Positions 1 to 32,545 of a DNA stretch of 64,000 bases are shown here, piece after piece; the first letter of the stretch is position 1; every line of letters starts with the position of its first letter. This stretch comes from Aurantiochytrium sp. KH105. Lineage: Eukaryota > Sar > Bigyra > Thraustochytrida > Thraustochytriidae. The translations under genes and the position numbers were made by a program. The notes under the pieces were generated by a model. The model saw only the letters and a program-made list of their open reading frames with translations. It did not search any database and was not told the origin of the DNA. The stretch lies in assembly GCA_003116975.1 (NCBI GenBank), contig BGKB01000044.1, forward strand, positions 1,004,940 to 1,068,939, written 5' to 3'.

Positions 1-3000
1 CTTGGCAGACTCGACAAAGATAATGACGCTTCGAGGTGTAGGTGACTGCAGAAATTTGGACAGAGGCATGTCGACGCCAAAGTCAGCGCGAAGTCTGCTC
101 ATCATGCGCGCCGCAGAGAGCGAGTGTCCACCTTCCTCGAAAAAATCCATCGTGTCCTCGAGGTCTTCCGGACGACGACCAAGACTCTCTGCAAAAATTT
201 TGCGAACGCTCTGAGCAAGCTCTGAGCTCTGCTCACTAGGTCCGCGACGAGTTCGTGAGCCTGTGGTCGAGTTTGAGTCGAAGCGTCGTGGCCGTGAGCT
301 CCGCGAGACTCCCTCGGCGTTCTTATCTCGACGAGCGGTCGCACCTGGCGCCGGAAGCGCGTGTTTATCGACCTTGTGATTTTGCGTAAGAGGAAACGAC
401 TTCATGGAAATGAGCGCGCTTGGCACCATAAAGGCCGGGAGCGACGCGCTAAGAAATTTGCGCAGCGCAGACGAGGATACTTCTGCTCCTTCACGCGGCA
501 CAACATAGCCAACGAGGAACTTGTCCCGGTCGCGCTCGCTGACAACTACAACAGCTTCTCGGACAGCGGGGTGTTGCAAGAGAACAGACTCGATGGCCAC
601 GAGCTCGATGCGGTTGCCTCGAATCTTCACTTGCGTGTCTCGTCGACCAAGGAACTCGATATGGCCGTTTTCGCGCCAGCGTACAAGGTCTCCTGTGCGG
701 TACATACGCGGATGGTCGCCCAGAAATGATGGACAGTCAATGGCGAGGTCGGCCGGGACCGGTAGAAAACGCTCCTTTGTGAGCTTGGGAAGGTTGAAAT
801 ATCCCCGACCGACCTGCTCACCAGCAATAAATAACTCGCCATACACTCCTACTGGCAGCGGCGTAAGGTGTTCTTGATCAAGCACGAGGCAAACTACCCC
901 AGAAGCAGGCTTTCCAATGCTTGGAGGCTCGCGCATCCCTGGCGGGACCGTCGTCATTGTGGCATTGATGGTCGTCTCTGTCGGTCCATAGATGTTGACA
1001 AGACGATACGGCGCATCCTTGCGGGCACCAAAGTGAAGCCGATCTCCACCTGTATAGAGGAGGCGAAGTGACCCAAGATTATCGCGAGGATTCTCCGTGT
1101 CTTCCTCCAGGACCATTTCGCAGAGCTGGGTTGTTAGAAAACCCATCGTCACCTTTTTCTCAGCAATCCAGTCCAAGAGTCGTGGTGCAACGACGCTAAT
1201 ATCGGAGTCGGTGACAGGTACCAGACAGGCGCCCACGGCAAGCGTGGGCCAAGTATCCGCCATGGCCGCGTCGAAGGCAAGACCAGCGCAGGCGAAGACG
1301 CGATCATCGGGCGTCATTTGGTAGTACTCGAGATGCCAGCGAATATAGTTCAAAAGGCCCGCATGTTCGAGGAGGACTCCTTTGGGCTTTCCTGTGGAAC
1401 CCGAGGTAAAAATAGCGTACGCGAGTTGCTTGCTTGTGTGATCCGAGGTGCTAACTTTGGCATCGCTCGCCAGAGAGATGACTTCGTCCCAGTCGCGATC
1501 GATGACGACTCTCCTTCCCGAAAAACTCGAAGGAATGCCGCCAAGGAGAGCCTCCTCGGTGATAACGAGAGACGAGTCGGCGTCCTCGAGCATGCCGCGC
1601 ACACGCTCGGCAGGGTACTTGGGATCAAGGGGCATGACAGCACCGCCAGCTTTGAGGATAGCTAGCCAGACCACGATGAGATGGGCACTGCGAGAGAGAA
1701 AGACAGGGACAAGGCTCTCTCGTCGGACACCTGCAAAGCGCAAAAAGTTAGCGAGGCGATTCGACCTTCGATTGAGCTCTTGATATGTCAGCGAAAGTGT
1801 CGGGGTCTCAATGCAAATTTTATCCGGTGTGCGTGCTGCCTGTGCTTCGACAAGAGCATGGACCGTTGCCGTCGCCCCCGCAGGTGGGCCACTGGTTCTC
1901 GCTGAGTTGAACTCGGTCAAAACCCGCGCGCGCTCTTCGTCAGCGAGCAAACGGATGTCAGAGATGTGAGTACGCTCTGGGTCTGCGGCGGCAACATGCG
2001 TTACGATACGTTCCAAACCGGACACGAGGCGCGCTATGGACTCGTCCTTGAAAACGTCGGTGCTGTATTGCATTGATCCCGCCAGCTGGCCGTCCTCGAG
2101 GCACAACATGAGGGTAAGGTCGAACTGGGCGTGCCTATGCGGACAGCTCAGTGATTCCATGACAGGGACGCCATCGCCAAAGTTGAGTTTCACGCCGTCG
2201 AATCCAAGAAGGGACTTGGCCAAGCCCGGGCGCTTCACGTGCGGACGTTGCAGCACAAAGGCAACGCTAAAGAGTGGATTCTCTCCGCTACTCCCTCCGG
2301 TACGAGTTGCCCCAGACTGCGCCTGCTGCTCCGCAAGGACGGGGAACGGAAGCGCTTGGTTATCAAGACCTCGCAGCATGACCGCTGCAACGCGGTTCCA
2401 AAGCTGCACCAGAGTAGGATCTCCCGCGAGGTCGGTCCGCACGACAATAGGATTGACAAAGTAGCCGATGAGATGCTCAAACTCCTCACGCCAGCGTCCT
2501 GCGGTTGGAACTCCGACCTGAACCTGGTTGCTTCCTGCAAATGATCGAAGGAGAATGCTAAAGCAAGAGAGCAAAATCACCGAGAGCGTGAAGCTTGTTT
2601 TGGAGCAAATGCCAAGAAGCTGTTTAGTGACATTGCGATCGAGCTCGAAGCGAATGGCCGCTCCTCGAAAAGACTTGACCGCAGGCCGGGGTCGATCGAA
2701 CAAGAGATCGAGGGAGTCCTTCGCGTCTTCGTCGCGGAGACTGCTCAGCTCACGCATCCAAAAGTCAAGCAAACGCTTTCCGCGCCCTCCGTGCACGAGA
2801 TTGTGTTGGGTCGCAATAAAGTGGCTGTACGTGTAGGCACCATTCTCATGTGATGACGCGGGATCATCATCCCGGTAGGCATCCATGAGCCGGTCCAGCA
2901 AAAGCACCATGCTCCAAAGGTCAGTGACGATATGATGCACGACGACGAGAAAAATTTGCCGGCCTTCCCATGCCTCGCTATTTCCCCCGCTTGCGGTAGC

Positions 3001-6000
3001 ACGAAGATTGGCAAGACGGACTCGCAACAATGGGCCCTTGGCAAGATCAAAGGGAGCGTATGTTTCCTTTTCGAGCCATTGCTTGATATCGGACTCGATC
3101 GCGACATCCAAGGTCGATTCAGCCATGTCAATAAGCGCTGAGCAGTCTCGATCATCATTTCCCGCGGGTAGAATGACACGGTCCACTGTAGCGTCCGCGC
3201 GGGAGGCTGGGACGTACGTGGCTCGGAGGGCCTCATTGTCGCGCGTGATCCGCACAAGAGCTCGGCGCATCTTGGCGGCGTCAAAGCTGTGTCTAGGTGC
3301 TAATTTGCACGAAAAGGAGACATTGTATGCTCGACTGGCCATCTCTGTCTGTGCCTGGCACACAAGCCAAAGCGACTCTTCATTATACGAGGCTTGTTTT
3401 TCGCTTACTGGAGCCGCCAGGGCCAGATCGCGCTCGTCTGCTTCCTGTAAAATGCCCATGCCAAAATTCTCAGAGGACGAGGGGGGCGAAGCAGACGAGG
3501 AGACCGCAATATCATCGATTCGCGCAGAGCTCGATGACGATGCACTGGTTGCAGCAGCATGACAGTACGCTTCCAGTCGAGGGAACTTGTACAAGAGGGA
3601 AACGGGAATGTCGGTATGTAAAAGACGACTCATTTGCGCCGTGACGCGCCCTGCACCGAGCGAGTCACCTCCAGCTTCGAAAAAGTGCAGACTTCGCGGA
3701 CTCGCACGCACCATGTCTTGTTGGCTCATGCTAAGAGCTTCACAAAAGGTGGACCACATGTTATCGACAAGCGCACTGTACTTGCTGCGGGACTCAGTGG
3801 CAGCGCGTGCCGCGCGATCTCCGCCCCCACTTTCACCACGGGAGCTGTCTTGTGTGCCTTTCACCTGAAGTCTCAGATTTGATGTCGTCTGCGACAGCGA
3901 GGCTGCGTCGTCGCTGTCTTCTTGTGCTTGATGCGAAGACGTGCCACGCGATGGCATTGGCGCAGGAAGACTGCGTCGATCAACCTTGTGGTTTGCTGTG
4001 AGCGGAAAGCTCTCAAGATCAACAAATGCCGAGGGAACCATGAAGGCCGGCAGCTCGTTCGCAAGAGCGTCATGAATTGATGCGGCAAGCTTGCTGCGTT
4101 CGCTGTCGCTTCGGACACCATCTTTGGCAATGTAGTAGGCCACAAGACGCTTGTTCCCGGGCTTGTCCTCGCGGGCAATGACGATGGCATCCTTGACGCC
4201 TGGGCACGAGAGCATACACGATTCAATCGCAGTAAGCTCGACGCGATTTCCCCGGATCTTGACTTGCGTGTCAATGCGTCCGAGAAAATCAATCTGGCCA
4301 TCGGGGAGCCAACGACAAAGATCGCCTGTCCGGTACATGCGTTTCGAACCGATATCAAATGGATTGATAAGAAAGCGTTCTGCAGAGAGCTCTGGCAGGT
4401 TGAGATATCCGCGTGCAAGCTGAACACCCGCGAGAAAGAGCTCGCCGAAGACCCCGATGGGAACCGGTGTGAAGGACTCTGGATCAAGAATGAAGCATTG
4501 CGTGTTAGGTGCTGGAGATCCAATTGAGGGAGGCGTCCGAAGGCCTTCCTGCACATACGTCATGGTCGCATTGACTGTGTTTTCGGTAGGGCCATAAATG
4601 TTAACAAGTTCATAAGGAGCGCCTTTGCGCGGACCCATGTGCAGGCGATCTCCTCCAGTGTATATGAGCCGCAGGGACCCGAGATCCTTGCGCGGATGCG
4701 AAGAGTCTTCTTCGAGAACCATTTCACAAATTTGCGTGGTGAGAAAGCCCATTGTTGCCCTTTCGCGCACGATCCAGTCGAGCAAACGAGGCGGAACGAT
4801 TGCAATGTCTGCGTCGACGATGGGCAAGAGGCAGGCGCCAACGACGAGCGTGGGCCAGGTGTCGGCGATGGAGGCGTCGAAAGCAAGACCTGCGCAGGCA
4901 AAGACGCGGTCCTTTGCAGACATGTGATAGTATTCGATGTGCCAGCGAATATAATTTGCAAGCGCGCCGTGCTCGAGCATGACGCCCTTGGGTTTCCCCG
5001 TGGATCCGCTCGTGTAGATGACATATGCCAGACTCGCCAGCTTTTGACCCGGATCCTCTGGTGGACGCAGCACGGGTGGCTGTGGGCTACCAAGCTCGAC
5101 GGCGCGATCCCAGTCGCGATCGATAAGAATAAGACGTGTCGATGTGCCCGCAAAGTGATCTTCGAGCGAGGAGTCTGTGATGGCAACGCTGCAGCGCGCG
5201 TCCTCGAGCATGACACGAATCCTGGACGCCGGGTATTTCGTGTCGGTCGGCATGATGGCTGCCCCTGCCTTGAGAACAGCGAGCCACGCCACGGTGAGCA
5301 TCGGCGAGCGCGGCAAGAGAACCATGACGGGATCTTCGAGACCGATGCCAACGAGTTGTAGAAAGTTTGCAAGCTGATTAGCCTTTGCCACGAGCTCACG
5401 ATACGTAAGGCTTTCCCGACCGCCATGTACAGAAACGGCAACGGCGTCTGGTGTGCGAGCGGCCGCTCTGTCGACGAGCTCGTGAATGTAAAGATTGTCC
5501 ATGGTCGAATCAAAGGTGCGCACAGTCTCATTGAATTTTCGAAGAACGATCTCTTCTTCAGGTGCCGACAGGATGCGAAGGTCGGAGATACGGACATCAG
5601 CAAATCGACGTACCACATCCTCGAGCAAAGTTTGGAAGTGAGAGCACATTCGTGCAACGGTGGCCTCTGACAGTACGCTGGACTTGTAGTGAAATGCGAG
5701 TCGAAAGACTGGCGAAGTGGTACCGACCAGGCGCAGGTCATCGTCCCCGCGCTCCATCAAGAAATGAAGTGGAATTGAGTCGAGTCTCACGCCTCCCAGC
5801 ATGAGTGGTTTGGTCTGTTGCTGCGTGTGCAGGGAGGAAAAGGTATCTAGTGAGGATGGCACGGAGAAACGGTCCTCCTCTTCCTCCTGGCGATTGTCAG
5901 CGCCGCCACCAGACGACTGCGAACCATGCTCGAGGCCGAGAATGAAGCGCATGACGCGAGAACTAATGAGTGGGAGGCCGTAGTCTTCGACGATATTCCC

Positions 6001-7149
6001 ATACACCTCAAATCCTGCCTTGAAGAGCGACTCTGAGCAGCCGACTGAACGCATGATGTCGTCAAGAGGGATTTCTGCGTTGGCTTCTGCATCGGCAAGT
6101 CCCTGACCACAGCGCTCAGCAAACTCGCGGACAGATGGGTGATCAGCGCTTTGCAGGCGAAGTGGAGCCCAGTTTTCAAAAGCGCCAACGATATTTTTCA
6201 GCTCAGCGTGTTGCGTGCGTCCCGAGACGTGGCAGCCGAGGATAATGTCAGTATTTCCGGCGTGCTTTGCCAGGAGCGTGTGAAAGGCAGCAAGCAAGAG
6301 GGTTCGCAACGCGAGGTCTTCTCGCACCGCAAGCACACGAAGGCTATCGCAGAGCTCGGGGGGTAGAGGCATTGCAAGCTGGGCAGCAAGGTTTCGACTG
6401 CCTTGTGACCGGGGCGGTGCATGGGCGGTGGTCGCGGGGTCGGGTGGGAGCTCGAGTTTGGGCAGCGGCCCCGCAAGGTGGTGTTGCCAAAAGCTCGTCT
6501 GGGTGTCCTCGCCCGCAGCTTTGGCTGCTTCGCGTTGATCGGCACGCCAAGCCTTGTACTCCTCGAACTGCACCTCGAGCGGCGCCAGCGAGAAACCGAC
6601 GCCAGATTCGTAGAGCAGCTTGACGTCAGAGAGCAGCAGGGAGAAGGAGAGCGGGTCAATAAAGCGTCTGTCGGCGACGATGACGAGAATGTCCTTGCCC
6701 GGAAAGCATCGTAAGAGACGCACGACTAGCACATTTGACTCCTCTTGGCGGCCTGAAAAGTCGATTGGGGCGAGGGCTTCTTGCGCAAGGTCGACGTCGC
6801 TCTTGCCCTTTTCGTGCGCGTCGTGGACCGTGAGGATCTTAAAGTTGAGTCTTCCCGGCCCCGCCAAGAGTGCCTGGCGCTCGCATGCTCGGGTAACGCT
6901 TGACTCAAGGGCTTCGGCGTCGAGACTGCCTGTGCTCGTGGCCGCAAACTGGACGACCGAGACCCGAGCGGCAGCAGCGGAGGCTCGCGCCCTTTGCTCT
7001 GTCGGTGGGGAGGTCGGGGAGCTCGATGCAGTTGATGGGGATCGGGACGAGGACGAGGATGACGACGATGACGACGATGAGCTCGTCGTCGTGGACACTG
7101 ACGAGGCAAGAGCCGAGGCCCGGCCTGCCGAAGGCGGCGGGTTCAACAT
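1..7149 (-). CDS. Non-ribosomal peptide synthetase, C*-A-T-C-A-T, 3' end beyond window
   Basis: This is one uninterrupted frame of 2383 codons that starts at the ATG at 7149-7147 and runs off the left edge. The next in-frame codon block upstream contains a TAG with no other ATG, which fixes the start. Residues 1-60 are a Ser/Pro-rich leader. Module 1 has a condensation domain (about 65-500), an adenylation domain (TSGSTGKPKG at 713-722, YGPTEN from 852, then a YRTGDL motif) and a carrier domain (GGDSL, phosphopantetheine Ser1163). Module 2 has a condensation domain (HHIVTDLWS from His1405), an adenylation domain (SGSTGKPKG ending about 1924, YGPTET) and a carrier domain (GGHSL, Ser2343). The first condensation domain lacks its catalytic histidines (DRRFID at 160-165). 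The multimodular carrier logic is known for the family and predicts a peptide product; the product itself is not readable here. No termination domain lies in the window. Confidence 0.95.
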   Translation of the reverse strand, partial: MLNPPPSAGRASALASSVSTTTSSSSSSSSSSSSSRSPSTASSSPTSPPTEQRARASAAAARVSVVQFAATSTGSLDAEALESSVTRACERQALLAGPGRLNFKILTVHDAHEKGKSDVDLAQEALAPIDFSGRQEESNVLVVRLLRCFPGKDILVIVADRRFIDPLSFSLLLSDVKLLYESGVGFSLAPLEVQFEEYKAWRADQREAAKAAGEDTQTSFWQHHLAGPLPKLELPPDPATTAHAPPRSQGSRNLAAQLAMPLPPELCDSLRVLAVREDLALRTLLLAAFHTLLAKHAGNTDIILGCHVSGRTQHAELKNIVGAFENWAPLRLQSADHPSVREFAERCGQGLADAEANAEIPLDDIMRSVGCSESLFKAGFEVYGNIVEDYGLPLISSRVMRFILGLEHGSQSSGGGADNRQEEEEDRFSVPSSLDTFSSLHTQQQTKPLMLGGVRLDSIPLHFLMERGDDDLRLVGTTSPVFRLAFHYKSSVLSEATVARMCSHFQTLLEDVVRRFADVRISDLRILSAPEEEIVLRKFNETVRTFDSTMDNLYIHELVDRAAARTPDAVAVSVHGGRESLTYRELVAKANQLANFLQLVGIGLEDPVMVLLPRSPMLTVAWLAVLKAGAAIMPTDTKYPASRIRVMLEDARCSVAITDSSLEDHFAGTSTRLILIDRDWDRAVELGSPQPPVLRPPEDPGQKLASLAYVIYTSGSTGKPKGVMLEHGALANYIRWHIEYYHMSAKDRVFACAGLAFDASIADTWPTLVVGACLLPIVDADIAIVPPRLLDWIVRERATMGFLTTQICEMVLEEDSSHPRKDLGSLRLIYTGGDRLHMGPRKGAPYELVNIYGPTENTVNATMTYVQEGLRTPPSIGSPAPNTQCFILDPESFTPVPIGVFGELFLAGVQLARGYLNLPELSAERFLINPFDIGSKRMYRTGDLCRWLPDGQIDFLGRIDTQVKIRGNRVELTAIESCMLSCPGVKDAIVIAREDKPGNKRLVAYYIAKDGVRSDSERSKLAASIHDALANELPAFMVPSAFVDLESFPLTANHKVDRRSLPAPMPSRGTSSHQAQEDSDDAASLSQTTSNLRLQVKGTQDSSRGESGGGDRAARAATESRSKYSALVDNMWSTFCEALSMSQQDMVRASPRSLHFFEAGGDSLGAGRVTAQMSRLLHTDIPVSLLYKFPRLEAYCHAAATSASSSSSARIDDIAVSSSASPPSSSENFGMGILQEADERDLALAAPVSEKQASYNEESLWLVCQAQTEMASRAYNVSFSCKLAPRHSFDAAKMRRALVRITRDNEALRATYVPASRADATVDRVILPAGNDDRDCSALIDMAESTLDVAIESDIKQWLEKETYAPFDLAKGPLLRVRLANLRATASGGNSEAWEGRQIFLVVVHHIVTDLWSMVLLLDRLMDAYRDDDPASSHENGAYTYSHFIATQHNLVHGGRGKRLLDFWMRELSSLRDEDAKDSLDLLFDRPRPAVKSFRGAAIRFELDRNVTKQLLGICSKTSFTLSVILLSCFSILLRSFAGSNQVQVGVPTAGRWREEFEHLIGYFVNPIVVRTDLAGDPTLVQLWNRVAAVMLRGLDNQALPFPVLAEQQAQSGATRTGGSSGENPLFSVAFVLQRPHVKRPGLAKSLLGFDGVKLNFGDGVPVMESLSCPHRHAQFDLTLMLCLEDGQLAGSMQYSTDVFKDESIARLVSGLERIVTHVAAADPERTHISDIRLLADEERARVLTEFNSARTSGPPAGATATVHALVEAQAARTPDKICIETPTLSLTYQELNRRSNRLANFLRFAGVRRESLVPVFLSRSAHLIVVWLAILKAGGAVMPLDPKYPAERVRGMLEDADSSLVITEEALLGGIPSSFSGRRVVIDRDWDEVISLASDAKVSTSDHTSKQLAYAIFTSGSTGKPKGVLLEHAGLLNYIRWHLEYYQMTPDDRVFACAGLAFDAAMADTWPTLAVGACLVPVTDSDISVVAPRLLDWIAEKKVTMGFLTTQLCEMVLEEDTENPRDNLGSLRLLYTGGDRLHFGARKDAPYRLVNIYGPTETTINATMTTVPPGMREPPSIGKPASGVVCLVLDQEHLTPLPVGVYGELFIAGEQVGRGYFNLPKLTKERFLPVPADLAIDCPSFLGDHPRMYRTGDLVRWRENGHIEFLGRRDTQVKIRGNRIELVAIESVLLQHPAVREAVVVVSERDRDKFLVGYVVPREGAEVSSSALRKFLSASLPAFMVPSALISMKSFPLTQNHKVDKHALPAPGATARRDKNAEGVSRSSRPRRFDSNSTTGSRTRRGPSEQSSELAQSVRKIFAESLGRRPEDLEDTMDFFEEGGHSLSAARMMSRLRADFGVDMPLSKFLQSPTPRSVIIFVESAK

Positions 7150-20267: not shown

Positions 20268-22907
20268 TCAGAAACAATCGAAGCGGTCCGTCCCGTAGCC
20301 GATCTTTTCCAGGCTTGGAATGCAAGCAAACTTGATCATCGGCGGAGGACCGCAAAGACCAACAAAGTTGCGCGCACCTGCCGGTGGCATGTTGGCGCGC
20401 ACCATGTCTTCATTGATAAAGCCGATGCCCCCCTTCCACACCTCGTCTTCGGGCGGATTGGAAACCGTGTAAAAGACATGAAGACGATCGGGGTGCGCCG
20501 CTGCCATCTCGTCAAGCTCAGCACGAAGTGCAATGTCGGCCGTGCTGTTATTGGCATAAATGAGCCAAAATACAGTCTTGTCGTCAGGATTCGCAAGGCC
20601 AGATTCAATCACACGGAAGGCGGGCGTAATGCCCGTACCTCCGCACATGAAACCAAGATTGTCGATCTCAATGTCCTTGGAACCGACGCGCAATTGACCT
20701 GCACGCGGGTACTGGATGTGACCACACGGTCCCTTGACCTGGACGAAGCTTCCCTCTGAAAGCGAATCAAGAACCTGGGACATCTTGCCGCCCTCTGGGA
20801 ATTTGGGGTGTTCGTTGGCACGGTAGACCTTGACGAGCATCGTGAACTCATCGCGGTCCTCGCTACGCGCCGCGAGCACAATTGGCGTGTACGGGCGAAT
20901 GACGGGACTGCCGTCTGGCATTTTCGATTTGATCATGACATGCATTCCCACGGGAAGACCGAGCGGGCGCTCGCGCTTCTCATCACGATGCCGGGGAGCA
21001 AAGCGCAAGAGAATCGTGTTGCTCGTGATGTCCTCCTTGCTGACAATCTCAAAGTCGACCCAGGCCTTCGGCTGAAGCCAAGGCTGGTTCTGCATCTGCT
21101 GCGGCGTCGCCGCGGGCTCGCTGCTGACCTGCTCGAGCTGCTTGCCAAGCGGCGCCGAGGCGAGGCGGCCAATGAGGTAGTCACGGAGCATGCCGATGGC
21201 CTTGGGCGAGTGGATGGCCTCGACGTCTTCCGTAGCGTCCGCGCCAGCAGCCATCAGGATACTGGCAGGACCGCCGGGATGGTCCTCCATGAAGGGCGTG
21301 CAGTCATAGACTTTGTCGCGCACAACGATCCAGGCGCTCTCCTCGGTATCGTGGCGGGCGACCTCGTCCAGCGTGAATTCAGGGAGCGACTTGAGGAGAG
21401 CCAGGTCTTCCTCGTCCATCTGCGCCGGGTCCTCATCGTCGTCGCCCATGCTCACGCTGCTGCCCTCGGTGTCGTCGCTGCCGGGGGCATCGGGAATCCG
21501 AACAGGTGGTACTGCAGCGGGCGGGCGGTGGTTGGCGGTCATCCATCCAACCGTGGACATGCCGGCCTCCTGCGTAGGATGCACGAAGCACAACTCCGTG
21601 CTGCCATCGTCGCGGACGCGGTGGTCGATGCGCACGCCAAAGATGCAGTTGTTGCCCATGCCCATGACATTCCACGTAAGTCTGTTGGGCTGAGTGTTGC
21701 TCGATTGGTCCCAAGCACGGCAATGCATCATGCGATGCGGCGTTGCCAGCTCTTCGGCCGTGGCCTCGTACGACCAATGAACCCAGCACCAGTACATGCC
21801 GTAGCGCGAGGGGCGCTCTTGCACGTGGAGCTCTGCGAGTTTCCACGTGTGGCCGTAGTCAAAGCTGACCTCTACGCGAGTAACCCGCTTGCCAGAGCCC
21901 GTGTAAGCATAGCCCTTGAGCGTGAGCGCAGGTTTGTTCTCGGATTGAGTTGTGGGCAACACCAGGGTGTCCTCGTGGAATGGAGTGACGATGGCGCTGT
22001 TGATGTTGAGCTCGTTAAAGAGGTACTCTTTGCGCATCCACCAGCCTTCCTTGTCAGCGAGCTCCTTGGTGATGCCAGGCGGGAGAATTCGGTTGTCAAA
22101 GTAGTGGTAATAGCTGTCGCTCTCACCCTTTCGGACCTCGAGACGTTTGAGCCACTTGACCATGCGACCGCCAATCCAGCCGGGGACAACCACGCGCACG
22201 GGGTAGCCGCGATCGGGGGGCAAAGGCTTGCCGTTCACCTCAAACGCGAGGATAACGTCACTCGCTAGGTTCATGGCGAGGCCGAGGGGAATGCACGTTC
22301 CGTAGTTGCCCTTGGGAAGATCATCAGCACCGACCATCCAAAGGTAGCGCTCTTCGAGGGGATACTCGTCATCCTCGTCTTCGTCCTCATCGGAGCGCCA
22401 AGGGAGGTTGCAGAGTTTGAGCAGAACGTCGCGCATGCGCACGCCGCGCCACTGTGCAGTTGAAACAGCGCCGGTATTCCAGCTAAAGCCCACCGTCTTG
22501 TCGGTCAGGTTCTCCTCCTTGCGACGATTTCCGGCGCACGTCAGAGTGGCCGTCACGGAGACGGAAGGGAGCGCAATGAGCTCGTCCATGGACAAGCTCA
22601 CATTCGTGAAGCCGCGCGCCACGTCTTCCTCGTCTGCGACGATCTCCAGCTTGTGCGAGTCCCAGTCGAGCTTGGGCACTGGGCCATGGTTCCGCGTGTA
22701 GTGAATGCTCGTCGGGGTGATGAAGCCGGCCTCCATGAGCTTTTGCGCGGGGGACTCCGCGTTGAAGGGGTGGATTCCCGTCAGTCTCACCATCTCCGGG
22801 TGGCGAGGGACCCAGGCATCAGGGGTCTTGGCGTCGCGCGGGTCGGGGACCACGTCCTCTGCGTACAGAGACTCGTCCACCTCGTACTTGAGCTTGCGCG
22901 TCTTCAT
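20268..22907 (-). CDS. Eukaryotic assimilatory nitrate reductase
   Basis: The 879-residue protein has the full eukaryotic layout. The molybdopterin sulfite-oxidase-fold domain (about 60-330) has the Mo-ligand Cys124 in TLTCAGNRRK. The Mo-dimerisation domain (about 340-480) follows. A cytochrome b5 domain has haem ligands His543 in DHPGG and His566 in AIHSPKA. The C-terminal cytochrome-b5-reductase half has RPYTPI for FAD (about 670), GGTGITPA for NAD(P)H (about 756) and CGPPPM near 855. It reduces nitrate to nitrite in the cytosol using NAD(P)H. The N-terminus is polar with no targeting signal. It is divergent from nitrite reductase across 2.2 kb. All catalytic residues I checked are present. 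The length is normal for the family (850-950). Preference for NADH or NADPH cannot be called. Confidence 0.97.
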   Translation of the reverse strand: MKTRKLKYEVDESLYAEDVVPDPRDAKTPDAWVPRHPEMVRLTGIHPFNAESPAQKLMEAGFITPTSIHYTRNHGPVPKLDWDSHKLEIVADEEDVARGFTNVSLSMDELIALPSVSVTATLTCAGNRRKEENLTDKTVGFSWNTGAVSTAQWRGVRMRDVLLKLCNLPWRSDEDEDEDDEYPLEERYLWMVGADDLPKGNYGTCIPLGLAMNLASDVILAFEVNGKPLPPDRGYPVRVVVPGWIGGRMVKWLKRLEVRKGESDSYYHYFDNRILPPGITKELADKEGWWMRKEYLFNELNINSAIVTPFHEDTLVLPTTQSENKPALTLKGYAYTGSGKRVTRVEVSFDYGHTWKLAELHVQERPSRYGMYWCWVHWSYEATAEELATPHRMMHCRAWDQSSNTQPNRLTWNVMGMGNNCIFGVRIDHRVRDDGSTELCFVHPTQEAGMSTVGWMTANHRPPAAVPPVRIPDAPGSDDTEGSSVSMGDDDEDPAQMDEEDLALLKSLPEFTLDEVARHDTEESAWIVVRDKVYDCTPFMEDHPGGPASILMAAGADATEDVEAIHSPKAIGMLRDYLIGRLASAPLGKQLEQVSSEPAATPQQMQNQPWLQPKAWVDFEIVSKEDITSNTILLRFAPRHRDEKRERPLGLPVGMHVMIKSKMPDGSPVIRPYTPIVLAARSEDRDEFTMLVKVYRANEHPKFPEGGKMSQVLDSLSEGSFVQVKGPCGHIQYPRAGQLRVGSKDIEIDNLGFMCGGTGITPAFRVIESGLANPDDKTVFWLIYANNSTADIALRAELDEMAAAHPDRLHVFYTVSNPPEDEVWKGGIGFINEDMVRANMPPAGARNFVGLCGPPPMIKFACIPSLEKIGYGTDRFDCF

Positions 22908-23420
22908 CGTCTTGTCCTTCTTTCCCTTTCACAAGCGGCGACGGCACCAGTGGCAGGACTTGTCTTGATTTGCTTTGGTGACCTTCGAAGAGCGCTCGCT
23001 GCTTGCTGCGCGATCACGGTGGCTTGAGACTCCGTGGTCGGTCAGATCGCACGGAGCTATGTATGTATAGTATGTATGAAGAAGGCTGTCTATACGCAGC
23101 AGACTCCGACTTGCCGCCGGAGAGCCAAGCTACGCGTTGCAGGTCGCAGTCGCTGTCGCGTGTTCGCGGACTCCGAGACCAGGCCGTCCACACGCGGGCG
23201 TCTGCACCCGCGAGAAGCCAGGATCTGTCTGGTCTGTTTGCTGCAGACTCGGGCCGCGCGGGAGGAGGCTAGTGATGGGTCGGCTTGTCTGCCAGGTACG
23301 GCGAGCAAGCGGCACACGAAGGGCTCTCGTTCTTACACACAACAGGATAGCTCGCGCTGAAAGAGCATCTACCTGACTGGGGCGTCCCTAGCGCCCTGGC
23401 GGCTTACTTGATCGACCGAC

Positions 23421-23446
23421 CGATCGATCGATCGATCGATCGATCG
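23421..23446. repeat. (GATC)n microsatellite
   Basis: There are six perfect GATC units, with related GACC units just before them. The array is self-complementary and could form a cruciform in the shared nitrate promoter. Confidence 0.9.
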
Positions 23447-23957
23447 CCAGGAAAACGGGGAGGCCACAAGAAACGCGTGCAACTGCAACGCGCGCAGTGC
23501 AGGTTTCGCTGCGAGTATGAGCGACACGAGCCGGCCGACCAGCCCTCCGTCTGGCAGGCCCGCCGGGGGAAAGAGGTGGCGGTGCTTGCTTTGTTCTTGC
23601 AAAACTCGGCCGCTCGCGCGCTCGATCGCTGCAGTCGCTCGCGCGCGCTCGCCCACTGATTTCTTGTGCAGAAACTGGAATTCGAATTCTAAAGAACCTC
23701 CCCGTTTCCCTTCATCCCGCGGCGTCGAAGAGGAAAAGCTCGCGCCTCCACAGCTGGGCGTCTCCCGGTCGCAGCACCCATTGCTCGCTCGCATGTCGAC
23801 GCAGCGGGGCGTCGCAAATGGGAAGCGAATAGGAAATGGAAGTTGTCGAAGTACGCCCTGGTGTGGGTCTCCACTGGCCTTGCTTCGATGGGCGGCTCTG
23901 ACGGATCGCCGACGATGACGAGTTTGATGGCTTGGCTGGTTTCCTTCCTGCGCACAA

Positions 23958-23967
23958 TGATAGATAA
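23958..23967 (+). promoter_or_regulatory. Overlapping GATA-factor site pair
   Basis: TGATAGATAA contains two overlapping HGATAR sites (TGATAG and AGATAA) in one orientation, near the middle of the divergent nitrate promoter. Such pairs bind AreA/NIT2-type factors in fungi. Binding here is untested. Confidence 0.4.
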
Positions 23968-24941
23968 ATGAACGTGGCAGTGGCCGCTGTCTAGCCCTCG
24001 ATCGGAGAGGAGGCAGAAGCGGCGACCGCGTGGCTGGTGGCTGAAAACTCGCTCGACAGCGGTATAGCACCTGCACAAGCCGCAGCTGGCCGGCTGCTTT
24101 TTCTCGCTCTCGCGTGCCCCATGGCCGGCAGCGGCGGAGGCGGACGCGATCACGCTAACATCTCAACTTGCGTTCGAGCGGGAGCCTCTCGCTCGCCGCC
24201 GGCAGAGGCGACGGTGACCACGTTCGCGATCGCGTCGCTTGAGCCAGAATTTGCCATCGATCGCTAAGAAGGAACAGGAGCAGCGACGGCAACCAGTCCC
24301 CTGCCCGCCTACGTCCCCCGCAGCGCCAGTGGCGAGCATCTGAGGGAACTGGTGTGGCCCACAGCGAATGACCGAGGCTGAAGGGGGTTCGGGGAGCGTG
24401 GGTTGCTCGCCAGTCCCTCGTTCTCCCCAGCAGACTTTTGCTGGCGGTCTGTTGGCTGGTCGGTTGGCTGGCCGGCTCGCTGGAGAAAGAGATTTCTGAG
24501 CGAGCACCTGCAGCCGCGGCCGCGAACGCGCACGGGTTTGTCCGGCTTCTCCCGGGCGGCTCCTGCGCGGATCGCTGGCCGGCCAGCCGGCCGACCGGAG
24601 GCGCGTGCGGGCACGACGTGGATGCGCCGCCGCCAGCAAAGAATTTCTTTCTCTTCCCATTTCTTTTTTTTTTTTTTCATTTCTCCCTCATTCTCCTTCT
24701 TCCTCTTTTCTCCTATTGTCTGCGCGAGAGGTCGCATCAACAGCGAGCAAGACAAGACAACACAAGACAAGAGTTGCGCGAGGACGAGCTCGCGTGGCAC
24801 CCACTCGCCTTTCGCGGTCAAGCGCCCGCCGGATTTGAGTTGAAGTCCACGCCGGCGCGGCCATTCGCGGTTCTTGTGGCGGGTCTGGCGGTGTCTCCGA
24901 GGCGAGCCGGGTTGCCGGAGGGAGCGTCGCGTTGCACGAGA

Positions 24942-25010
24942 TCGCATTGCATCGCGCAGTACTGTATTGCATTCAAGTTGCATTGCATTGCGTTGTACGC
25001 TGCATCGCAC
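24942..25010 (+). repeat. ATTGC-rich array upstream of nitrite reductase
   Basis: There are five ATTGC units, two of them directly adjacent in TTGCATTGCATTGCG, mixed with GCATCGC variants. The array ends about 115 bases before the start codon. A similar array in the same relative orientation lies upstream of the nitrate transporter gene. Confidence 0.7.
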
Positions 25011-25126
25011 CCGCCATAGCAAGGAAAGGGCGGCGTAGAAGAAGGCGACGGGCAAAGCACAAACGAGGCGCGCCTGAGCGCACAGGCAAGAGGCGCAGAA
25101 AGAGGACACGAGAGGGAGGAAGAACG

Positions 25127-28100
25127 ATGGCGCCCGCGCGGGAGAAGATCGTGGTCGTGGGCCATGGCATGACCGGCCAGCGGCTCGTGGAGAAGCTTGT
25201 GGAGCACAGCGCCGGCTTAGACGCGGAGCAGCGGCCGGAGATCGTGGTGTTCGGAGAGGAGTCGCAACCCGCATATGACAGAGTCAAGCTGACCTCGTAC
25301 TTTGAGCACATGGATCCCATGCGTCTGCACCTCCAGCAGCGTGAGTGGTATGATGAGAACAAGAGCCAGGTGACGCTGCGCAGCGGCGACCGCGTGGTGG
25401 CCATCGACAGCGCCAAGCGTGTGATCAAGACGCGCGAGGGCGACGAGCTCGGATACGACAAGCTGGTCCTGGCCACCGGCAGCGTGCCTTTTGCGCCGCC
25501 CATTGAGGGCGTCTGCAAGGACCACCTGCTCGCCCAATTCTACGGTGGTAGCGACGGGGTTTCTTCTTGCGCTTGCGGACCCGAGGCGCATCCTAAGGGC
25601 GTCTTTGTGTACAGGACAATCGACGACCTCGATGCCATGGTCAAGTACTCCAAGGAGCACAAGATTAAGGCCGCCGCCGTCATTGGCGGAGGTCTGCTGG
25701 GCCTCGAGGCCATGCGCGTTTGCTCGGAGCACCTCGGTGTTGAGGACGTCCGCGTGCTCGACAGCTCGCCGCACCTGATGCGCCGCCAGCTCGACGGCAA
25801 GGGTGGCCGCCAGCTCATCCGCACCATTGAAAGCATGGGCTACAAGGTTCACACCCGCGCGCGGACCTCCCGCATCGAGGCCGAAGATGGCCTCTGCAAG
25901 AAGCTCTACGTGGGCAAGGCCGGCGCCGAGGGCAGCTTCGACATTGACGTTGACATGGTCATCCTCTCGGCCGGTATTCGCCCTCGCGACGAGCTGGCTC
26001 GCACTGCGGGAACTCTGACCATGGCTGATGCCACGGGCGGAGGCATCCAGGTCGACGACCACATGGCCACCTCGGATCCGCATATTTTCGCTGTCGGCGA
26101 ATGCGCGAGCCACAACGGCATGTGCTACGGCCTCGTTGGACCGTGCTACGATATGGCTGCCGTGCTCGCGTACAACCTCGTCAACCCGAGCGCCAAAGAG
26201 GAAGCCAAGACGTTTTCCACCGGTGATGTAAGCACCAAGCTCAAGCTCATGGGTGTCGATGTCGCTAGCTTTGGCGACTACTCGATCGAAGAGGACAAGG
26301 AGAACGACGACAATGCTCTTTCGCTGGTCTTTCAGGACCCTCTTGCGGGCATCTACCGCAAGCTCACCTTTACGGCTGACGGCAAGAACCTTCGCGGAGG
26401 TATCTTGGTCGGCGATGCCGAGGACTACGGCACCCTGTCAATGCTCGCCAAGAGCTCCAAGCCTCTCAAGGTGTCCCCCACCTCGCTGCTGCCTCCGCCG
26501 AGTGCGAACGGCGGCTCGGGCGGAGCTGGTGTCAGTATTGTGGACATGGACGACGACGCCCAGGTGTGCTCGTGCAACGACGTGAGCAAGGGCGCGATTT
26601 GTGCATCGGTGCGTGACCAAGGCTGCGAAACGGTCGGTGCCATTGGCGGCTGCACCAAGGCCGGCATCAGCTGCGGAGGTTGCAAGCCGCTCCTGCAAGA
26701 GCTTCTCGTCGACGAGATGGGCAAGCTTGGCAAGACGGTGGACAAGAGCCTTTGCGAGCACTTTCGTTTCACGCGCCAAGAGCTCTTCCACATTGTGCAG
26801 ATCAACAAGATCAAGAGCTTTAACGAGCTTTTCGAGTCCCACGGCTCCGATACCGCCAGCGTGTACCGTGGATGCGAGATTTGCCGTCCGGCCGTGGCAA
26901 GCATCTTGGCCTCGTTGTGGAACGAGCTGGTGATCAGCAATGACAATGCCCCACTTCAAGACACCAACGATCGTTTCCTTGGCAACATTCAGCGCGGCGG
27001 CTCGTACTCGGTGGTGCCTCGCGTTCCCGGCGGCGAGATCACGCCCGCCAAGATCATTGCCCTCGGCGAGATCGCCCAACGCTATGGCCTGTACTCGAAG
27101 ATTACCGGAGGCCAGCGCATCGATCTCTTTGGTGCCGAGCGCCACCAGCTTCCGCAAATCTGGGAGGACCTGGTCAACGCCGGTTTCGAGAGCGGCCATG
27201 CCTACGGCAAGGCCTTGCGAACAGTCAAGTCCTGCGTTGGCTCGACGTGGTGCCGCTTCGGTATGCGCGACAGCGTAGGCTTTGCCATCGAGCTTGAGGA
27301 GCGCTACCGTGGCATTCGTTCTCCGCACAAGCTCAAGGGTGGTGTCTCGGGCTGCATCCGCGAGTGCGCAGAGGCGCAGAGCAAGGACTTTGGTCTCATC
27401 GCGACGGAGCAAGGTTACAACCTGTACGTTTGCGGCAACGGCGGCAGCAAGCCGCGCCACGCCACCCTCTTGGCATCTGGCATTGATGAGGAAACCTGCA
27501 GACGTTACCTGGATCGCTTTCTTATGTTCTACATTCGCACTGCCGACAAGCTGCAGCGCACGGCTCGCTGGCTCGAGGGCCTCGAGGGTGGCATCGACTA
27601 CCTCAAGGAGGTTGTGGTGAACGACAAGCTCGGCATCGCCGAAGAGCTCGAGGCTCAGATGGCTCATCTCATTTACACGTACAAGTGTGAGTGGAAGGAA
27701 ATTGTCACCGACCCGGAGCGCCGCAAGATGTTCGCGCAGTACGCGAACGAGCCCTCCAAGTCGGAGCGCGGCATCGAGTTTATCAAGCAGCGCGGTCAGC
27801 AGCGGCCTGCGGACTGGCCCAAGACCTGGGACGCACTCCCGCATGTGCCCAAGCCTTCGAACAACCCTGTCATCGCGCTTGAGCCGGAGACGGAGGAGAG
27901 CATCGAATCCAAGGATCCGTCGTCCTCGCCAATGATGTCTTCGCAGCGTTTCCCTGGTGGCGAGACTTGGGTGGATATGGTGCACGTCGACGACGTACTC
28001 ATGGACTCTGGCGTCACGCTGCGCTACGGCAGGTCGGAGCTAGCACTTTTCAAGCTCGCGACCTCTGCCAAGACTGGCCCCAAATTTCGTCTCTTTGCCA

Positions 28101-28477
28101 CACAGAACATGTGCCCGCACCGCAACTCGTTCGTTTTATCGAGCGGCTTGGTTGGTGACGCGGGCGGGCTGCCCAAGGTGGCCTGCCCTATTCACAAGAA
28201 GCGCTACATTCTCACGACGGGTAAGTGCCTTGATGACGAAAACTACGAGCTCTGGACCTTCCGCACGCGTCTCGATCCCTCGACGGGCCGGGTCTCGCTT
28301 CTTCTTCCGTCCGAAGCGGACTTGGACGAAATCCTTGCGAGCGAGAAGTACCGTGTCACCTCGGCAATGAAGGACTACAACCCGGCGGAGCATACCATCG
28401 AGGTCGAGACGTCGCTTGCAGACGGCGGTGAGGCCAAGAGCACTGCATGCTGTGGTGATTCGAAGCTTGAATGGTAA
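25127..28477 (+). CDS. NAD(P)H nitrite reductase with C-terminal Rieske (NirBD/NiiA type)
   Basis: I start at 25127 (1116 residues, MAPAREKIVVVGHGMTG). The upstream in-frame ATG at 24932 only adds Arg-rich sequence derived from the ATTGC array. Order of domains: FAD/NAD oxidoreductase (VVVGHGMTG at the N-terminus, VIGGGLLGLEAM near 185), a BFD-like [2Fe-2S] domain (CSCNDVSKG about 480, CGGCKPLL), nitrite/sulfite reductase half-domains, the 4Fe-4S/siroheme cysteines (SCVGSTWC about 702 and SGCIRECAEA about 742), and a NirD-type Rieske domain (NMCPHRNSF about 995, ACPIHKKRY). It performs the six-electron reduction of nitrite to ammonium with NAD(P)H in the cytosol. This fungal/oomycete form differs from the plastid ferredoxin enzyme. 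It needs siroheme, whose precursor is made by the methyltransferase at 34725. Confidence 0.97.
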   Translation: MAPAREKIVVVGHGMTGQRLVEKLVEHSAGLDAEQRPEIVVFGEESQPAYDRVKLTSYFEHMDPMRLHLQQREWYDENKSQVTLRSGDRVVAIDSAKRVIKTREGDELGYDKLVLATGSVPFAPPIEGVCKDHLLAQFYGGSDGVSSCACGPEAHPKGVFVYRTIDDLDAMVKYSKEHKIKAAAVIGGGLLGLEAMRVCSEHLGVEDVRVLDSSPHLMRRQLDGKGGRQLIRTIESMGYKVHTRARTSRIEAEDGLCKKLYVGKAGAEGSFDIDVDMVILSAGIRPRDELARTAGTLTMADATGGGIQVDDHMATSDPHIFAVGECASHNGMCYGLVGPCYDMAAVLAYNLVNPSAKEEAKTFSTGDVSTKLKLMGVDVASFGDYSIEEDKENDDNALSLVFQDPLAGIYRKLTFTADGKNLRGGILVGDAEDYGTLSMLAKSSKPLKVSPTSLLPPPSANGGSGGAGVSIVDMDDDAQVCSCNDVSKGAICASVRDQGCETVGAIGGCTKAGISCGGCKPLLQELLVDEMGKLGKTVDKSLCEHFRFTRQELFHIVQINKIKSFNELFESHGSDTASVYRGCEICRPAVASILASLWNELVISNDNAPLQDTNDRFLGNIQRGGSYSVVPRVPGGEITPAKIIALGEIAQRYGLYSKITGGQRIDLFGAERHQLPQIWEDLVNAGFESGHAYGKALRTVKSCVGSTWCRFGMRDSVGFAIELEERYRGIRSPHKLKGGVSGCIRECAEAQSKDFGLIATEQGYNLYVCGNGGSKPRHATLLASGIDEETCRRYLDRFLMFYIRTADKLQRTARWLEGLEGGIDYLKEVVVNDKLGIAEELEAQMAHLIYTYKCEWKEIVTDPERRKMFAQYANEPSKSERGIEFIKQRGQQRPADWPKTWDALPHVPKPSNNPVIALEPETEESIESKDPSSSPMMSSQRFPGGETWVDMVHVDDVLMDSGVTLRYGRSELALFKLATSAKTGPKFRLFATQNMCPHRNSFVLSSGLVGDAGGLPKVACPIHKKRYILTTGKCLDDENYELWTFRTRLDPSTGRVSLLLPSEADLDEILASEKYRVTSAMKDYNPAEHTIEVETSLADGGEAKSTACCGDSKLEW

Positions 28478-29064
28478 TCGAAAAGCTCAAACTCTATCGT
28501 AACTGCAAAAACATGTCAAGTTCTTTTTCTTCTTTCCAGTATTCTATTGCTCACTTGCTTGCTGTTTCGCTCGCCACAGAAATTTTTTTGCACTTGCAAT
28601 GAAATCTTCAGCCACGACGACCGACACCATCATTCACCTTTTGCATGAGGTGCTCTTGGACACAGGAAGCACCGCGGGGAGAGGGAAATGACTGACTTGC
28701 ATGAAGGATCTTTCGCTTCCGATGGGTCGGCACGTGAAGGCCTTCATAGAGCCAAGAACAGTAGGCGAGGTCACGTGGTTCTGATCGACTAGAGATGTTG
28801 ACGTTGGTGCGATACTTTGCACCTTTGACGGACAAATCGCAATTTTTGGCTAGGGGCGAGGCGGCGGCCTGCAGAGACGTTCTGATGTCCTGGAGGGAGA
28901 AGAAGGGTGCTGCATGAGCATTACCAAAGCAATGAAGCTGAAGGTAACAAGCTTCGCGACCAGCAGCGGCAGCAGCAGTAGGATTGACAAAAGACACCAA
29001 TTATTGTTATCAAAACTGGGAATCAGGATGCAGGTTCGCAAATCAAACAGTCCGGACAGCTCAC
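28478..29064. other. Convergent intergenic region, nothing recognised
   Basis: This region lies between the 3' ends of nitrite reductase and the nitrate transporter and is A+T-richer than the genes. No coding or repeat signal is seen. Confidence 0.5.
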
Positions 29065-30621
29065 TTAGGCCTGCACGGTTTCCTTCGTGCCATGAATGGA
29101 GGAATCGCCAATATCCTCGGATGCCTCGGACGCGGTCTCAACTGAGGACAAAGGCTTGGAACGGCAGCCAAGGAGGTACTGACCCTGAACAGGGATAAGC
29201 GACACGAAGGCGGCGACGCCAAAAATGATGAAGGCAAGGTAAAGGTAAGCATCGCGCTGGCTGTCGATGCTCTTGAACATGGTCGACCAGGACACAGCGC
29301 CGATGTTGCCACCAGCGCCCACAATACCAGCGACGTTGCCGATGTTGCCCGGGTTGAGGAAAGGAACAATGGCAAAAGTCGCGCCCTCACTGGCCTGGAC
29401 AAAGATGCTAAAGCAAACGAGGAAGCCAATGGCAGTGGGCACGGCGGTGACTTGGCTGAAGACAACAAGCATGGTTGCCTCGCCGAGCAGCGTGAACATG
29501 AGGACACCAAGGCGTCCGCGCATACCAAAGCGGTAAAAAGCAAAGTCACTGCCCACACCGCCGAGAGCGCGAGCAAAGAGGTTCATGAGGCCAAAGAGGG
29601 AAGCGATCTGCGAGGCTGTGTCCTTGCCGAGAGTAGAGCACGAGGCAGGGTAGCTCGTGCTGATCTGCACGGCAAGGTCGGTGCAGCTGGGGTCGGCGTC
29701 CGTGTTAAAGTAGCGGTAGAGGAAGCCCGAGAGCGAGTTGTTGAGCGCGAGCTCGACACCGAAGCAGGCAGCGTAGATGAGAGCCAAGAGCCAGACGCGG
29801 TAGTCAAGGACGACGTCAAGGTGAGAGGCTTTCTTCGCAGGGGCGTCCTTGACAGGGGCCTCCTCGTCCGCGATCTTGTCAGCGCTGGGGTCGTTGTAAA
29901 GACGGTTGCTCCAGTGACCCTGAGGGCAATCGTCACTGAAGAGGAGCATGGGGATGGCGACACAGATCATCATGAGGCCCGGAACAATTAGGGCATAGCT
30001 CCACGCCGTCTCGTCTTCAACGCCGCTGGAGCGGATGCCAGAGATGATGGAGGCCACGAGAGCAAGCGCAGCACCACCGCCCAGGTTGCCCCAGCCGCCA
30101 GCAAAAGCGTTGGCAGTACCCACGACGCGAGTTCCGAACATCATGGTAGTCCAGTACTGGCACGGGACGAAAGCACCACCCACGAGTCCGATGAAGAAGC
30201 GGATCGCGAGCAGGCCCGAAGCTGAGTTAACAGAGGAGGAAATGAGCACCAGGGCGCCACCTCCCAGGAGGAGGACGGCCTGTGGGCGACGGGCACCGAA
30301 GCGCTCACAGACAGGGCCGAGCGCGAAGCGGACAAAGATGGTGCCGAGCACCGAGACGATGTTTGAGGTCTTCTTGACATCGTTGGTGATATCGTTGCTA
30401 GTGTCAGCAACAATGTACTCGAGGCAGGGCACGATGGAGAACCAGCCCAGGAAGGCAACAAAGAACGAGACCCACGAGGCATGGAAAGCGCGGTACCAGG
30501 GGCGCATGCACGAAAAGACCTTGAAGTCAAGGGCGCGTCCATACTCGTCGGTGGGGATGCCCTTGTACTCTTGGTTCTTGATGTCGCGGGAAATCCCGCC
30601 GGTGGCGCCAAGAGCGACCAT
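29065..30621 (-). CDS. High-affinity nitrate/nitrite transporter (NNP, NRT2/NrtA-like)
   Basis: I start at the ATG at 30621 (518 residues, MVALGATGG). The in-frame ATG at 30822 would add 67 Lys/Arg/Ala-rich residues without family character. The protein has about 12 hydrophobic segments of the major facilitator fold. Both nitrate signatures are visible: AFAGGWGNLGGGAALAL (about residue 165) and GAGGNIGAVSW (about 450). The tail IKNQEYKGIPTDEYGRALDFKVF at the N-terminus also matches NRT2 proteins. Members import nitrate with protons at the plasma membrane. The C-terminus is a short acidic tail. It sits three genes into the nitrate cluster, convergent with nitrite reductase, so uptake and both reduction steps are adjacent. 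Confidence 0.95.
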   Translation of the reverse strand: MVALGATGGISRDIKNQEYKGIPTDEYGRALDFKVFSCMRPWYRAFHASWVSFFVAFLGWFSIVPCLEYIVADTSNDITNDVKKTSNIVSVLGTIFVRFALGPVCERFGARRPQAVLLLGGGALVLISSSVNSASGLLAIRFFIGLVGGAFVPCQYWTTMMFGTRVVGTANAFAGGWGNLGGGAALALVASIISGIRSSGVEDETAWSYALIVPGLMMICVAIPMLLFSDDCPQGHWSNRLYNDPSADKIADEEAPVKDAPAKKASHLDVVLDYRVWLLALIYAACFGVELALNNSLSGFLYRYFNTDADPSCTDLAVQISTSYPASCSTLGKDTASQIASLFGLMNLFARALGGVGSDFAFYRFGMRGRLGVLMFTLLGEATMLVVFSQVTAVPTAIGFLVCFSIFVQASEGATFAIVPFLNPGNIGNVAGIVGAGGNIGAVSWSTMFKSIDSQRDAYLYLAFIIFGVAAFVSLIPVQGQYLLGCRSKPLSSVETASEASEDIGDSSIHGTKETVQA

Positions 30622-31742
30622 CCTTGTGTACTTTCTTGCTCTACTTGCTTGTCTTGCTTGTTTAGCTTTGGTTTGGTTGACAAAGTTTTGCTTTACAGGT
30701 TTGCTTGCTTTGGTTTGTGCTGCGCTCGCTTTCTTTGCTCGAAATAGTCTCCTGAGGCGGCGCGACGGATGCCCAAGCAAGGGAAGGCAAGGCAGAGCAG
30801 GGTATGGCTGGCAGTTATTCAATTCTTTTTCCTATTCTGGCACGAGCGCAAAGAAAGACGATGCAGGCGACTCCCCCTTGCACTTCAAGCGGTCGTGTGA
30901 AAAAAGGTTGTTTGGGGCTGCACGGGTACAGAGAGAGAGCCAGAGTGCGGGCGAGAAAGAGGAAACAAACGAATGAACGAACGCCCCAGCTGCAGCGCTC
31001 GCTTTGCCGCCTCTCCATGCAACTGCATCGCGAGCAGGACTTTGCCGGCTGCGGGCCAGCAGAGGAGCTGGCTGCGGGTCGCCGCGCAGGCTCCGTTGCT
31101 GATGCCTGCCGAGCCCACCCAAACAAATGGTCCGCGCGCTCGCTGCCTTCCCGTGGCTCTGCGGACAATGCAAAGTCGCTGGCGATCGCACGCGTGTGAG
31201 AGAAGATCACGTAAGCTCCATCCACGTCGCGGGTGCAGAGCCAACGCCGCCCGACGACGCGAGCTGCACCGCTGCCAGCGCCGACCCCGACTCGACTCGG
31301 CCTGGCTCGGCTCGATTCGACTCGATTCGACTCGACAGGCTTTTTGGAAAGTCGGACCCCAAACAGTCCCAGATCGATTTGTACCTTCCTCGACTACCGC
31401 AGGTGCTCGGGCCGAGCAGCGCGGAGAAGGGAGCTGGAGAAGGGCGCTGTCCCGGCCTGAGCCTTTTTCGGGTAAACGCTGCACCGCGCATTGCGCACCC
31501 AGCGAGCCTGGGGCCGAGGCTGCGTGTCCCTGAGCCCCCCCCCCTTTTCTCGCCATCCTCTCTCTCCGCATTGCTTGCATTGCGCCGGGGAGGACAGGCT
31601 CGCCGACCGCGTCGCCGGCCAGACCAGGCCCTCGCCGCCGTCGGCGCCGGGGGGTGGCCAGCACCGGCTGCGGCAACGAGCCGAAGCTGTCGACACGAGC
31701 CGGGAGACGCTGCATGTTTTCATCGCAAGAAAACGCTGCTTC

Positions 31743-31794
31743 GCGACAACAATGCAATGCAATGCAGGGCAATGCAATGCCACGCAATGGATTT
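31743..31794 (-). repeat. ATTGC-rich array upstream of the nitrate transporter
   Basis: Read on the minus strand, the same strand as the transporter gene, it gives GGCATTGCATTGCCC and TGCATTGCATTGCATTG, about six ATTGC units, 1.1 kb upstream of the chosen start. Further single ATTGC motifs lie at 31483-31588. It parallels the array before nitrite reductase. Confidence 0.7.
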
Positions 31795-32521: not shown

Positions 32522-32545
32522 CGATAAAGCTCTCCGTCTTTATCG
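32522..32545. promoter_or_regulatory. Perfect inverted repeat of GATA sites
   Basis: CGATAAAG, an 8-base spacer, then CTTTATCG form a perfect 8-bp inverted repeat with two opposed CGATAA sites. The spacing allows either a hairpin or a bipartite GATA-factor site between the transporter and siroheme genes. Confidence 0.4.

Follow-up and report, generated by a model that had tools for sequence, protein, structure and literature searches.

The window analysed here, a stretch of 64,000 nucleotides from the thraustochytrid Aurantiochytrium sp. KH105, corresponds to C44:1004940-1068939 (contig BGKB01000044.1) of an assembly comprising 76.0 Mb in 367 contigs. Its left end is occupied by a minus-strand reading frame which, in an ORF scan of the window, stays open over 2402 aa between position 7206 and the edge and codes for the N-terminal part of a nonribosomal peptide synthetase (NRPS). 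We extended the contig leftward, as a first-pass annotation of the window had proposed, and read a third module and a terminal thioester reductase in the same frame. In the contig, the gene occupies one uninterrupted frame of 4476 aa between two stop codons on the minus strand (C44:998739-1012169), and from its first methionine it comprises 4449 codons, coding for a protein of 486 kDa. The window holds the N-terminal 54% of the gene at positions 1-7149 of the minus strand (2383 of the 4449 codons), while the remainder lies to the left, down to C44:998739. The first ATG (7147-7149, minus strand) is located 27 codons past the preceding stop and has an identical position in a second copy of the gene (see below); the previously proposed gene start at 7149 was thus exact. 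The longest open frames in 100 single-base shuffles of the 13.4 kb reached at most 363 aa (mean 206), the longest frame elsewhere in the window measured 1212 aa, and the NRPS frame itself is free of internal N or X.

Searches with Pfam and NCBIfam profiles and for sequence motifs resolved the protein into ten domains in the order C1-A1-PCP1/C2-A2-PCP2/C3-A3-PCP3-R, representing three modules of condensation (C), adenylation (A) and carrier (PCP) domains with a reductase (R) at the end. Within the N-terminal 2029 aa, Pfam alone reported two matches each to A and C domains and one each to AMP-binding_C and PP-binding, and all three C domains were placed by a PF00668 search of the organism's own genome. 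All features of the window lie on the minus strand. The condensation-like domain C1 (5560-6942, Pfam E-value 3.6e-24) carries the sequence DRRFIDP (6652-6672) in place of the HHxxxDG motif and is followed by A1 (3925-5502; PF00501, profile positions 2-384 of 384) and by PCP1 (3535-3744), which was placed by Pfam, its motif and the domain boundaries. The second module consists of C2 (1915-3402; Pfam and motif alignment) with the motif HHIVTDL at 2917-2937, A2 (325-1902; Pfam, motifs and pocket code), which is 57% identical to A1, and PCP2 (10-219), assigned in the same way as PCP1. Because PCP2 ends at about base 10 with our hand-set boundaries, the window contains C1-A1-PCP1-C2-A2-PCP2, which confirms the earlier description of two full modules followed by a third outside the window. 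The first of these modules needs a qualification, as C1 lacks HHxxxDG and the 69 residues preceding our cut at residue 70 are mostly serine-rich and contain nothing that resembles the beginning of a C fold.

The motifs expected for a working synthetase were present in the rest of the protein. All three carrier domains keep the phosphopantetheine serine (GGDSL, GGHSL and GGHSL), and PF00550 scored above its cut-off in both halves of the protein. The same applies to TIGR01733, with 603 and 542 bits against a cut-off of 317, and the core motifs are intact in all three A domains. The catalytic HHxxxD is kept in C2 (HHIVTD) and C3 (HHIAMD), but not in C1. The reductase domain scored 249 bits with the thioester reductase model TIGR01746 (cut-off 213), has intact Rossmann (GATGFLG for GxxGxxG) and YxxxK (YAQTK) motifs and reaches the last residues of the protein, which can be aligned with the termini of seven R domains from bacteria. 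The aligned C-terminal part is broken by a low-complexity region well in excess of 100 residues, and poly-serine runs occur inside both A3 and R. Pfam listed no thioesterase in the NRPS, and a PF01370 "Epimerase" match of 28 bits falls inside R and represents the general NAD-binding family. We saw no separate NRPS epimerisation domain, because the search with PF00668 found no more than three domains in the protein, each located ahead of an A domain. As judged by its domains and motifs, the protein is complete and probably a functional, trimodular, reductase-terminated NRPS.

The reductase was compared with bacterial reductase-terminated NRPSs, namely the MxaA structure 4u7w and four cyanobacterial loci (L013, L014, L019 and L020). 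It matches MxaA and shares the GxxGxxG and YxxxK motifs and the alignment of the domain end, whereas it differs by an identity of at most 36%, by long low-complexity inserts and by belonging to three modules in one eukaryotic protein. The A-PCP-R order of the last module is also that of the α-aminoadipate reductase Lys2, which in contrast to the NRPS does not contain three modules. Membership in the Lys2 family was rejected, since the protein scored 617 bits with TIGR03443, below the cut-off of 1030; the pocket of A3 presumably does not match the Lys2 code either.

The second copy of the gene is located at C141:37522-50952 and also contains 4449 open codons. The two regions are colinear over 28 kb, with blocks matching at 95.4-97.4%. 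Over 4448 aligned codons, we obtained a dN of 0.0084 and a dS of 0.083 (ratio 0.10), and the differences were distributed over the three codon positions as 52/32/258. The seven large domains (C1-3, A1-3 and R) showed individual dN/dS values of 0.018 to 0.154, and the linker between PCP1 and C2 (44 codons; residues 1206-1249, window 3403-3534) is nearly unconstrained with a value of 0.77. Because the second copy keeps length and frame with a dN/dS of 0.10, the protein is maintained by purifying selection. The two copies most likely represent the two haplotypes of a diploid host, as we infer from the observation that the other genes looked up in the assembly also seem paired. The two copies of the region are about 4% apart overall, and the dS of 0.083 seems high for alleles and might point to a hybrid.

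The altered domain C1 is matched by its Pfam profile only between positions 142 and 349 of 456. Among 185 reference C domains extracted from the fetched bacterial loci, 149 carried HHxxxDG and 172 carried HHxxxD, and the second histidine was kept in 175 and missing from ten. Between the two copies, C1 showed a dN/dS of 0.105, like the other domains. From its sequence, we consider it most likely that C1 is no longer catalytic yet still needed; the observed constraint could likewise be that of a C domain which is active but unusual. A structure model of C1 was of low confidence (mean pLDDT 58.3, pTM 0.53), and a fold search with it ranked C domains at the top and the teicoplanin X domain 4tx2 in third place; because of the low confidence of the model, this search supports a C-like fold and nothing beyond. 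X domains of glycopeptide synthetases recruit P450 enzymes and occur towards the end of the assembly line. C1 would resemble them in having a C fold whose active motif is lost, but differs from them in its N-terminal position, and there was no sign of recruitment in this analysis.

The substrate pockets were compared by their codes, and bacterial control domains gave codes of the Pro, Leu, Gly, Ser and Asn types. The pocket codes are DAAFYGIVNK for A1, DAAFYGIINK for A2 and DPLLYGHVMK for A3. They were set against 280 A domains of bacteria from two groups of loci, namely the 80 best of at least 594 matching stretches and eight plasmid loci. There was no exact match; the best agreements were 6 of 10 positions for A1, 7 of 10 for A2 and 6 of 10 for A3, with best overall identities of 48%, 46.5% and 47%, respectively. 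In a tree of 69 A domains calculated by a quick method, A1 and A2 formed a sister pair with an SH-aLRT value of 100, and they therefore go back to a duplication within the history of this protein; A3 had no starred group in that tree. The nearest domains by identity were mostly of the Leu type for A1 and mixed (Ser-like and others) for A2 and A3, and the nearest by tree path were cyanobacterial Leu-type domains for all three. Relative to DAWFLGNVVK, which we take to be the Leu-type code, the pockets differ at four (A1), five (A2) and six (A3) of ten positions. Judging from these codes, A1 and A2 probably load the same or a similar, perhaps hydrophobic, residue, and A3 a different one. Because the pockets differ from the known codes, we limit the prediction to the same or a similar residue twice, followed by another.

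Further genes of the genome were searched for possible partners of the synthetase. In the 76-Mb assembly, PF00668 gave six matches (searched in six frames and by single exons, so that counts are minimum values), corresponding to three domains in each of the two copies, and no C domain was found beyond those of the NRPS. PF01648 also gave six matches, apparently three pairs. One of these pairs, in frames of 331-332 aa, codes for a phosphopantetheinyl transferase and is a candidate for the activator of the carrier domains. An MbtH-like helper gene was not detected in the genome with a profile that matched in two of 14 control genomes; not all A domains require such a helper. The genome also contains other large synthases. 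A pair of genes resembling subunit A of polyunsaturated fatty acid (PUFA) synthase was represented by a best TIGR02813 piece of 930 bits (cut-off 1010) with other pieces on other contigs, where TIGR02813 also matched below its cut-off in 11 of the 14 control genomes. The PUFA-synthase-like genes carry ketosynthase, acyltransferase and carrier domains, and a fatty acid synthase (FAS)-like frame of 4171 aa ends in a ketosynthase and a phosphopantetheinyl transferase (ACPS). Taken together, a PUFA synthase and a giant FAS with a terminal phosphopantetheinyl transferase are marks of thraustochytrids, and the genes seen here speak for such a host but do not prove it. In addition, frames of 5708 and 5831 aa were observed at C27:303609-314666 and C56:295285-306354, each with four ketosynthase-region matches to TIGR02813; they apparently represent a giant modular polyketide synthase (PKS)-like gene, one per haplotype.

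We propose that the gene codes for a single-protein trimodular NRPS of a diploid protist, which would produce a linear tripeptide and release it reductively. A1 and A2 would load the same or a very similar, perhaps hydrophobic, amino acid onto PCP1 and PCP2, and A3 a different one onto PCP3, after activation of the carrier domains which the separate phosphopantetheinyl transferase of about 330 aa could perform. C1 has probably lost its activity; chain growth would then begin from a free amino acid, and C1 itself may be retained as a structural or docking piece. C2 and C3 would then join the residues to the tripeptide. R domains of the thioester reductase family can yield aldehyde, alcohol or cyclic products. 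The R domain is predicted to use NADPH and to release the tripeptide as an aldehyde, which might possibly be converted further to the alcohol or be cyclised. The best reading of the product class would be a tripeptide aldehyde (or alcohol). Resting on sequence features, this model as a whole, including an inactive C1, has a probability of roughly 0.78 in our estimate.

The NRPS gene was previously assigned to a eukaryotic genome, and a place in the nuclear genome is supported by its setting. The contig is 1.1 Mb long and carries eukaryotic genes on both sides of the NRPS, with genes for a myosin and a PH-ankyrin protein to the left and for TANGO2, DnaJ and nitrate reductase to the right. Of 20 long frames scanned, 16 matched a Pfam family at an E-value of 0.001, where two of these matches stayed below the curated cut-offs, and further families among the neighbours include chorismate mutase, an amino-acid transporter, nitrite reductase, MFS and others. 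The GC content of the NRPS gene (0.565) and its codon distance (0.073) are within the range of the neighbours, and its GC3 value of 0.596 is at the low end, in a comparison that flatters the neighbours since they are part of their own reference pool. Bacterial contamination, which had been named as a finding that would overturn the assignment, might be suspected from the intronless gene and from the bacterial origin of the nearest sequences. It is made very unlikely by the eukaryotic flanks and the colinear second copy, with codon use resembling that of the neighbours; against an assembly chimera speaks that the sole N run of the examined C44 stretch (25 bases) lies outside the gene, and we regard either explanation as practically negligible. 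The weight that had been put on the lack of introns is not supported, since large neighbours are also single open frames, e.g. those for myosin (at least 1269 aa in the examined stretch), nitrite reductase (1181 aa) and nitrate reductase (879 aa), as are the FAS-like (4171 aa) and PKS-like (5708 aa) frames elsewhere in the assembly. Because the scanned frames were chosen for length, we give no intronless fraction for the genome. An inherited gene that no longer works would agree with the lost catalytic motif of C1, but such a relic is highly improbable for a gene with 4449 open codons in both copies and a dN/dS of 0.10 overall and of 0.02 to 0.15 in the seven large domains, including C1.

As to the origin of the NRPS, its closest counterparts in the searched collections are bacterial, though only distantly similar, and none of them can be named as a donor. 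The solved structures nearest to the NRPS are bacterial among the best 60 of 168 and the best 60 of 135 sequences, and an alignment-based scan of nearly all-bacterial collections gave a best identity of 45% among at least 594 matching stretches. The best plasmid-borne A domain reached 46.6%; pattern matches obtained in genome_contigs with query P0002 (22) and in viral_contigs with query P0001 (one) were not confirmed in any case. The phylogeny of the C and A domains, as suggested beforehand, placed bacterial domains nearest, at great distance, but resolved no donor lineage in these nearly all-bacterial collections. In the C-domain tree (58 rows), the end branches of the NRPS domains measured 2.39-4.71 changes per column, and the starred group containing C3 is not trusted because long branches meet there. 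Recent horizontal transfer of the gene from one given bacterium, e.g. a cyanobacterium, would fit the cyanobacterial domains nearest to A1-A3 by tree path and the R domain, whose four best matches among 108 plasmid records were cyanobacterial (34-36%), but a cyanobacteria-rich sampling may bias these nearest rows. We consider such a transfer unlikely, given that the A domains are at most 48% identical to the bacterial ones, the C branches are very long, no close relative was confirmed in genome_contigs, poly-serine runs interrupt A3 and R, and the gene resembles its neighbours in composition and codon use; as a firm claim, it was rejected on the A-domain and plasmid identities and the dominance of long branches in the C tree. 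Compatible with the great distance from the bacterial sequences compared is an old protist NRPS shared with Aureococcus and Bigelowiella. In the accessible text of one study, an NRPS of Bigelowiella natans is described with ten domains, three C domains and 490 kDa, and one of the stramenopile Aureococcus anophagefferens with the same arrangement, three C domains and 460 kDa (PMC4661987). The NRPS of KH105 agrees with them in C count, domain count and nearly in mass (486 kDa), as taken from printed counts, sizes and the mention of the arrangement; the likeness in size and count could be convergence. Furthermore, the accessible text of another paper reports an epimerase in the three-module enzyme of B. 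natans, which is absent from the KH105 protein, and reductive release at the end of other enzymes of this species (PMC7073580). We hold the shared ancestry of these enzymes as a tentative possibility, at somewhat worse than even odds. A still more specific version appears rather doubtful to us, namely an old tripeptide-aldehyde synthetase common to thraustochytrids, the pelagophyte Aureococcus and the rhizarian Bigelowiella, in which C1 would have lost catalysis and become an X-like recruiting platform. If it were true, protists would share a conserved small product that acts as a signal, as a protease inhibitor or in defence.

The previous notion that multimodular synthetases are rare outside bacteria and fungi holds insofar as they are uncommon in protists, but they have already been reported in relatives. 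As far as the accessible text goes, NRPSs were present in seven of 32 algae, where peptide synthetases are called rare and their products mysterious in almost all cases (PMC4661987). Table 2 of another study gives NRPS counts of three for Phytophthora cactorum, two for P. capsici, nine for P. parasitica and four for a fourth species, which is P. sojae going by the table title (PMC5916904), and two proteins of Pythium insidiosum are reported with an NRPS as best match at 29% (PMC5841299). The suggestion of a little-known stramenopile pathway is thus fair, with the restriction that stramenopile NRPSs are in print for Aureococcus and Phytophthora. In the accessible thraustochytrid literature, NRPSs appear as a class sought by antiSMASH (PMC6050695), as NRPS/PKS best hits in a database (PMC8660808) or, for their carrier proteins, in general terms (PMC7457351). 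We found no description of such an NRPS in the accessible main texts on thraustochytrids, Aurantiochytrium or labyrinthulomycetes. The KH105 enzyme is a good further example and not a new kind of enzyme. Because the gene is complete, in one frame, under selection and the only C-domain gene found, a product could be assigned to a protist NRPS by combining one knockout with metabolomics. A genuine likeness to the enzymes of Aureococcus and Bigelowiella would point to an old shared pathway and not to scattered gene captures.

Some further observations concern the surroundings of the gene. A gene with a chorismate mutase domain (prephenate dehydratase just under the cut-off) and an amino-acid transporter gene are located near the NRPS, and a biosynthetic gene cluster was considered and rejected, as nothing links either of them to the pathway. 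The frame downstream of the NRPS (C44:995067-998246, 1059 aa) contains several copies of a motif like DVDAIMDxIDFGITTPTPLARASK; its first 748 aa gave no Pfam match, and 854 aa of its C141 counterpart gave no NCBIfam match. Finally, window positions 20268-35744 hold closely spaced genes for nitrate reductase, a tetrapyrrole methylase, an MFS transporter and a nitrite reductase with NIR_SIR and Rieske domains. Their arrangement resembles a nitrate-assimilation cluster, to which a sirohaem enzyme may belong.
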